Assembly (NCBI GenBank): GCA_013214025.1
Contig: JABSRN010000041.1
Coordinates: 1 to 64,000 of the forward strand
Length of the DNA stretch: 64,000 bases
Direction of reading: 5' to 3'
DNA from: Polyangiaceae bacterium
GTDB lineage: Bacteria; Myxococcota_A; Polyangia; Polyangiales; Polyangiaceae
The position numbers were made by a program, and so were the translations under genes. How positions within the stretch are numbered: the stretch's first letter is position 1; each line of letters opens with the position of its first letter. The notes under the pieces were generated by a model, which worked only from the letters and a program-made list of their open reading frames with translations, did not search any database and was not told the DNA's origin. This document shows positions 16,463-59,771 of the stretch, in pieces.

Positions 16463-16497
16463 CCAACTTGGCGGTAGCTCTAAAGTTAACGATAACC

Positions 16498-16530
16498 GGC
16501 CGTAGTTCGGCCGTAGTTCGGCCGTAGTTC
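16498..16530 (+). repeat. Three tandem 11-bp repeats before the acnA remnant
   Basis: GGCCGTAGTTC occurs three times without a gap or mismatch, at 16498-16508, 16509-16519 and 16520-16530. It lies in the 158-base gap between glpB and the acnA pseudogene. It may be a protein-binding array or a slippage product; no promoter is recognised next to it. Confidence 0.85.
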
Positions 16531-16620
16531 GGTCGAACCTTCACGCTCTCTTGGCGAGCCCCGAACGCGGGACCTCGTGACCAGACAGCACAGCTAGGAT
16601 CCCTCAAGGCAACGCGTTCC

Positions 16621-28419: not shown

Positions 28420-29738
28420 CTATGTTTTGGGGCTCATCAGGGGCAACATCACGAGGAAGCTGGAGCCGTGACCGGGGACGCTTTCGATCTCTAACCGTCC
28501 GTGGTGGGCGGTGACAATATCTCGAGACACGGACAGTCCAAGACCCGTGCCGTGGTCGTTCTTAGTCGTGAAGAAGGACTCGAATATTCGATCCGTGTGT
28601 GCGGGATCGATGCCGTTTCCGGCATCTCTCACGATGCCGAAGACTCGCTCTTCACGAAGCTCGCTGGACAGCTGAATCGAGCCCCCACTCTCCATGGCGT
28701 GGCAGGCGTTGGTGATGAGGTTGACAAACACTTGGGTCAGAGCGCTGTGGATGCCGAGTATTGGGGGCAGTTGTTCGTTCAAGCTGAGCTCTACGACGAT
28801 GCCGCGATGCTTGACCGCGTGTTCGCATAGCAACGTGGCGCGTTCGATGGGTTCGTTGAGGCTGAGCTGGGTCTCTTCGTCGCTGGAGGGTTTCGCGTAG
28901 TTGAGCAAATCTTGGGCGAATCCCATGATGTGTTCTGCCGCCGAGCCGATGCGACCGATACGCTCAATCTGTTCGCCCGCGCTGCCGTCAGCCCGCGCAC
29001 GCTGTCTCAAATGTTCCGAGTAGCCCATGATGGCCGATAGCGGGCTTGAGACTTCGTGCGCGACCCCGGCGACAGCTTGGCCGAGAGAGGCGAGTTTTTG
29101 GGTCTGGACCAATTGCGCTCGCAAGCGTTCGATCAACGACGATTCTGGATCGGGCGAAGACGCGCTGCCACGCAGTACCGCGTAGGCGGCTCGGGCGACG
29201 TCGTCGCACAAGGCGAGCTCCTTGGGCTGGGTCTCGAGATCGATCTCGCTGCCCACATGCAAGGCTGACGCGCCCAGGGCCGCACCTAAGCGGAAGGTTC
29301 GTTCGTGAGATTGCTCAGGGAAGCAGCGGCGCCGCGCGTTGTGGACGACTGTGTCGGAATCGGCGTAGTGCACCTGGCAGTCCCCGTCGGTTCCGCCCTC
29401 AAGTCGAATGGTGAACGCGAAATTCGGCATGCAGTCTGCGGTTTGTTCCAACAGTAGCGTGAGGCATGACTGATAGTCATCGTTGGGATCGTGGTCGGCT
29501 ACCAGGGCGAGCAAGCGGCGCAGTAGCTGAACTGCCCGGTCGGATTGTTTCCGGCTCCGACGGGCGTCGCGGGACTCCTGGCGGCTCTCGTCGGGCGGCT
29601 CTCGTCGGGCGGCTCTCGTCGGCTCGGTACGGGCTCGGTGATCGGCCGCTCGTCAGCGGAGCCCTCCGCCCCGCCTTCAGAAGAGCCATCCTCCCTGCCT
29701 TCAGAACATTCCTCTGTTGGGTCGTCGACTTGACTCAC
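28420..29738 (-). CDS. Histidine kinase whose frame is interrupted by a 14-bp triplication
   Basis: The kinase frame runs 29514-28420 (364 residues): an N-terminal sensory part of about 130 residues, HisKA with AGVAHEVSSPLSAIMGYSEHL, then N-box VFVNLITNACHAMESGG, DAGNGIDP, FESFFTTKND and GTGLGLSVSRDIV, so the catalytic core is complete. Its only in-frame start is a TTG at 29514. A GTG at 29738, overlapping the upstream gene's stop (GTGA), opens a better-placed start, but that frame ends at 29499 because three 14-base repeats at 29580-29621 put it out of phase. With two copies the GTG frame would read straight into the kinase with no stop. It is either a phase-variable gene in the OFF state or a recent frameshift. 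Confidence 0.75.
29580..29621 (-). repeat. Three perfect 14-bp tandem repeats (possible phase-variation tract)
   Basis: The plus-strand unit GGCGGCTCTCGTCG is at 29580-29593, 29594-29607 and 29608-29621 with no mismatch. Fourteen is not a multiple of three, so each gain or loss changes frame. From GTG 29738 to the kinase codon at 29514 the distance is 224 bases; minus 14 it is 210, divisible by three. Loss of one unit therefore fuses the two frames. Confidence 0.92.
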
Positions 29739-59657: not shown

Positions 59658-59678
59658 CGCGGTCCGCGGTCCGCGGTC
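59658..59678 (+). repeat. Three 7-bp tandem repeats in an intergenic gap
   Basis: CGCGGTC occurs three times in a row (59658-59664, 59665-59671, 59672-59678) in the 220-base gap between the kinase and the next membrane protein. Short, GC-rich and possibly chance; noted for completeness. Confidence 0.6.
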
Positions 59679-59771
59679 CGGACGCGGCCGCGTACGCTCC
59701 CGGGCGTTTTGCAGACCGCTTGTTTGCTCTCGGTTGAGCCGGTATGAGCCGACGGCTTACGGAAGTCTCTA

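Follow-up and report, generated by a model that had tools for sequence, protein, structure and literature searches.

A perfect 14-bp tandem repeat at the frame break of a histidine kinase gene in a conserved two-gene signalling operon of a Polyangiaceae bacterium

Results

Two genes for signalling proteins follow one another on the minus strand of the 64,000-nucleotide stretch of DNA from a Polyangiaceae bacterium that was analysed (the window), and the second of them carries a perfect 14-bp tandem repeat in its N-terminal linker (Table 1). The product of gene 1 combines sensory and receiver domains with a phospho-accepting HisKA domain; a HATPase match in Pfam is lacking, and the protein ends just past the DHp helices. 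The H-box histidine of gene 1 is present at 70 of 70 loci, where the C-terminal end lies 76-136 residues beyond it, and matches to gene 1 at E<=1e-40 occur in 70 of the 284 genomes of a phylum sample. Gene 2 is predicted to be a histidine kinase of the HisKA type, with HisKA and HATPase_c domains exceeding the Pfam cut-offs and the residues of the H, N, G1, F and G2 motifs present; the catalytic motif residues that were checked do not vary among the 69 orthologues. Its 364-codon kinase frame retains these catalytic motifs intact and shows no further lesions, and the closest named relatives are kinases from Myxococcales and Archangium MAGs (37-41% identity). Together with the large genome size in the family, these relatives suggest a myxobacterium.

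A phospho-acceptor protein without an ATP-binding domain, conserved beside a partner that has one, is the constellation that marks split kinases, and it is found here, so that gene 1 and gene 2 perhaps form a candidate split-kinase system. As only gene 2 in the operon has an ATP-binding domain, its loss could, by analogy with described split kinases (PMC3591291; PMC7656254), silence both operon members.

Table 1. Features of the two-gene operon and non-triplet repeats at frame breaks elsewhere in the genome
Feature	Position	Strand	Description
Gene 1, Rec-GAF-PAS-PAS-HisKA, 665 aa	29735-31732	minus	Open reading frame; Pfam Response_reg, GAF, PAS (two), HisKA
Gene 2 start, GTG	29736-29738	minus	4-base overlap with gene 1 stop
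GTG open frame at three copies, 79 aa	29499-29738	minus	Stop at 29501-29499
Gene 2 kinase frame as assembled, 364 aa from internal TTG	28420-29514	minus	N-terminal sensor region, HisKA, HATPase_c
TTG fallback start	29512-29514	minus	13 bases upstream of GTG-frame stop; interrupts conserved W-L-D-R-L-L motif
14-bp unit, three copies, perfect tandem	29580-29622	minus	Unit GACGAGAGCCGCCC (minus strand); Tandem Repeats Finder
24-bp unit, two copies, imperfect (87%), in frame	29659-29706	minus	N-terminal linker of gene 2; Tandem Repeats Finder
10-bp unit, three copies	L120:6533-6562, contig C141		Unit ATCGCTGCAA; frame break in MCP-like gene; second frame lesion upstream
8-bp unit, 2.9 copies	L155:1812-1834, contig C5		Unit TTGCATGC; splits Rec-GGDEF gene within receiver domain

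A first-pass annotation of the window had noted three perfect copies of the 14-bp unit at 29580-29621, a tract which Tandem Repeats Finder extends to 29622 (period 14, 3.1 copies, 100% match). An exact 14-bp repetition across 43 bp is no chance match, and the 27-bp pattern of two units is unique within the genome assembly. As annotated, the unit length is not divisible by three and the tract lies within a reading frame; all three frames pass through it without a stop, so that the copy number sets the downstream phase only. The sequence equally confirms that at three copies the frame from the GTG ends at 29499, after 79 codons. Between GTG 29738 and TTG 29514 the spacing is 224 bases, and the removal of one copy leaves 210 bases and, as had been stated, a joined frame free of stops: the two-copy allele constructed in silico is a single frame of 434 codons, open to the kinase stop. 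One- and four-copy alleles made in the same way run into an early stop, and the three-copy allele as assembled is closed as well. This arithmetic alone is weak evidence, as a broken frame would be mended by the loss of one 14-bp copy by chance with p ~1/2, and the weight of the frame argument is therefore borne by the comparison of orthologues and by codon usage. Besides the 14-bp tract, the linker contains a second, imperfect repeat (24-bp x2), for which reason we call it repeat-prone; it seems to change by tandem duplication.

The search for the kinase took in 108 genomes of the same family, none of them of the same genus, and gave matches in 93, a count that may include paralogues. The comparison set comprised 69 further loci from related genomes, each with both genes, which were picked by similarity, so that the frequency of gene loss cannot be read from it; despite this choice the region upstream of the kinase match was free to break, yet it is unbroken at all 69 loci. 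Throughout the set a gene 1 homologue precedes the kinase, which is read in an unbroken frame starting at the gene 1 stop or close to it (69/69 for both). The identical 4-base overlap of gene 1 stop and kinase start (-3 offset) recurs at 39 loci; 11 of the orthologous kinases start 4 bases past the last stop base of gene 1, and the remaining starts lie within about 16 bases of that stop, except one 48 bases downstream. Upstream of the position that corresponds to TTG 29514, every one of the 69 orthologues has additional residues (minimum 5, median 42, maximum 75), and the first conserved motif of the kinase, W-L-D-R-L-L, spans this very position, which rules out TTG 29514 as the native start. 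As the orthologues continue upstream and are coupled to the same gene 1, the native start of gene 2 is GTG 29738, with a predicted product of 434 aa at two copies.

The comparison thus answers the check proposed with the first-pass annotation, an alignment of the kinase N-terminus with its homologues, in that all 69 continue upstream through the region of the GTG frame. The sequence itself bears out two observations made there: the GTG is coupled, in that it overlaps the end of the 665-aa gene by 4 bases, and outside the GTG frame the kinase can begin only at the internal TTG, from which the 364-aa frame is read. A non-triplet tandem tract within the 240 bases at the start of the gene occurs in 0/69 orthologues, one of which carries an in-frame 18-bp x2 repeat, and no contingency tract conserved across the family was found. 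No relatives were found among the viral contigs searched.

To locate the break, codon usage was modelled on 31 long open frames from within the window. The model's median position for the passage out of the GTG frame into that of the kinase is 29601; 83% of the posterior probability falls within the tract, and the 95% interval is 29649-29579. Although the linker gives a weak codon signal, it agrees with a break caused by the repeat. The break lies in the 14-bp repeat or next to it; a frame change distant from the repeat is disfavoured, weakly, by the codon usage.

Perfect tandem tracts were further surveyed in 2.0 Mb, 35% of the genome. Perfect non-triplet tracts with units of at least 7 bp are mostly intergenic in this sample, and genic tracts are almost all triplet-based. 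Those non-triplet tracts of the 2.0 Mb that can be placed inside genes coincide with broken frames, namely the case in the window, an MCP-like gene and a Rec-GGDEF gene, the halves of which would join on losing one copy of the tract. Among the intact genes of the same 2.0 Mb none was seen to carry a comparable non-triplet tract, bar a GCG-triplet run and a weak case of 10-bp x2.6 at L173:3858, and a genome-wide system of genic non-triplet tracts was not found. Breaks at L160:16581, L141:258 and L120:15272 are only apparent and represent gene boundaries, while the 8-bp tracts at L181:7120 and L195:17018 were rejected as genic, lying upstream of the likely real starts.

Some further repeats lie outside genes. 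In the window, perfect 11-bp x3.3 and 7-bp x3.3 repeats occupy intergenic positions 16497-16532 and 59658-59680 and are possibly variable spacers near promoters. Other 14-bp tracts of the genome, apparently noncoding and with a unit sequence different from that of the gene 2 tract, are found at L209:8835-8917 (5.9 copies) and L212:3290-3348 (4.2 copies).

Discussion

The state of gene 2 is probably due to a genuine extra copy that slippage added to the DNA and that shifts the gene out of its frame, be it a selected switch or not. In such a scenario, gene 2 would be the catalytic partner in a conserved signalling operon of two translationally coupled genes, and slippage in its repeat-prone N-terminal linker would have led to three copies (+14 bases). 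Ribosomes starting at GTG 29738 would then exit the kinase frame and terminate at 29501-29499, ahead of the kinase domains, and the three-copy allele would provide no normal kinase and at most little of a truncated kinase through reinitiation at TTG 29514. As the tandem copies are identical, the slippage loss of one of them would mend the frame, and the allele may therefore be revertible in principle. That slippage expansion occurs in this genome is suggested by the perfect non-triplet tracts elsewhere in it. On the other side, the genome is a fragmented draft of 184 contigs, in which copies might be miscounted, the linker yields a weak codon signal, and a single copy would likewise be out of frame, which means that a functional ancestor must already have carried either two copies or a compensating indel. 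Within this reading, a sporadic loss-of-function allele created by slippage is quite conceivable, if somewhat short of probable.

If the third copy were instead a sequencing or assembly error, the true copy number would be two and the gene an ordinary one. The draft state of the genome with its 184 contigs and the intact gene in 69/69 relatives speak for this, as does another gene of the assembly whose frame is broken at two places, one of which lies at no repeat. But the tract is not situated near an end of its contig (C121, 160,552 bases), common read lengths exceed the 43-bp tract, and short tandem tracts are more often collapsed than expanded by assemblers; an error is accordingly unlikely, although a serious candidate. 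Alternatively, the three-copy gene might be functional as it stands, if ribosomes underwent programmed -1 frameshifting within the overlap of the two frames (29652-29499) or reinitiated, by coupling, at TTG 29514. The GTG and kinase frames do overlap by about 150 bases, and the distance of 13 bases from the TTG to the GTG-frame stop permits reinitiation. Frameshifting at a classical slippery heptamer is nevertheless ruled out, as none is present within the overlap, a Shine-Dalgarno match before TTG 29514 is missing, the TTG start would truncate a conserved motif, and such an architecture occurs in 0/69 orthologues, all of which makes a functional three-copy gene very improbable. Explanations other than a slippage allele, a switch or an error are together improbable.

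True phase variation would require frequent slipped-strand changes of the copy number, with two or five copies ON and one, three or four copies OFF, and would give rise to mixed populations of cells with and without the kinase. The tandem copies are perfect, the unit is non-triplet, the tract is open in all frames, and the gene is conserved, otherwise intact and restored in frame at two copies, so that copy number decides on frame integrity, as expected of a contingency locus, in silico. A conserved gene, with kinase matches in 93/108 family genomes (paralogues possibly counted), is moreover unlikely to be lost lightly, and there is a precedent for a reversible frameshifting duplication in a sensor kinase, pheN/gacS of Pseudomonas tolaasii, as related in PMC10928948. 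Against a switch stand the long unit and the mere three copies, and retention of the tract in relatives, which would lend support to a contingency locus, fails in that the tract is missing in all 69 orthologues. If such tracts served as switches in this genome, some of them should be caught in the ON state; the lack of intact genes with a comparable non-triplet tract in the 2.0 Mb therefore counts against a switch, without excluding it, as the genome sample is small. Phase-variable loci usually switch at rates above 1e-5 per generation (PMC6686034).

Taken together, true phase variation is rather unlikely. From the first-pass proposal of a kinase that is phase-variable via 14-bp repeats, the native GTG start, the break in or beside the repeat and the restoration of the frame by the loss of one copy hold, while the switch itself finds no counterpart in the orthologues (0/69 with the tract) or in a comparable intact gene within 2.0 Mb. 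Phase variation is unproven and not favoured over sporadic mutation; an evolved switch fits the data no better than does an in principle revertible loss-of-function allele made by slippage, or an assembly error. It is doubtful that the candidate in-frame 14-bp minisatellite in the catalytic half of the operon acts as a genetic switch which turns the signalling of the whole operon on and off in subpopulations.

Several known systems resemble parts of this arrangement. In P. tolaasii pheN/rtpA (gacS), a reversible 661-bp duplication shifts the reading frame (Han et al. 1997, as cited in PMC10928948). Both sensor kinase genes have a frame-shifting tandem duplication in their 5' part, and the change in pheN is reversible; unlike the 661-bp unit of pheN, the switching of which is seen in colonies, the unit in gene 2 has 14 bp and is known from sequence alone. 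Revertible repeat variants of agr in Staphylococcus aureus (PMC6686034) share with gene 2 a repeat mutation in a two-component regulatory locus and are reversible, but arise by short sequence repeats or rearrangements and have been demonstrated in culture, whereas the gene 2 tract has been read from an assembly. Promoter tandem repeats of Mycobacterium tuberculosis, which vary in copy number within populations (PMC12817950), likewise consist of longer tandem units; those repeats are located in promoters and their variation has been measured within populations, whereas the gene 2 tract lies in a reading frame. As to the operon, the split kinases CheA3/CheA4 of Rhodobacter sphaeroides (PMC3591291) and Hik36-Hik43 of Synechocystis (PMC7656254) resemble gene 1 in a member without an ATP-binding domain, which is supplied there by the partner; unlike these systems, gene 2 is predicted to be a complete kinase, and its pairing with gene 1 is deduced from their sequences.

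Switch or not, the gene model is corrected, with the start of the kinase at GTG 29738 instead of TTG 29514. If the copy number is constant, the locus would represent a clean example of a regulator inactivated by tandem duplication. If the copy number varies, it would be a new case among the known repeat-switched regulators. Genetic switching as a means to create subpopulations is known mostly from pathogens and pseudomonads, and with a variable copy number one sensor kinase would be genetically switched in a bacterial group that is rich in sensor kinases.
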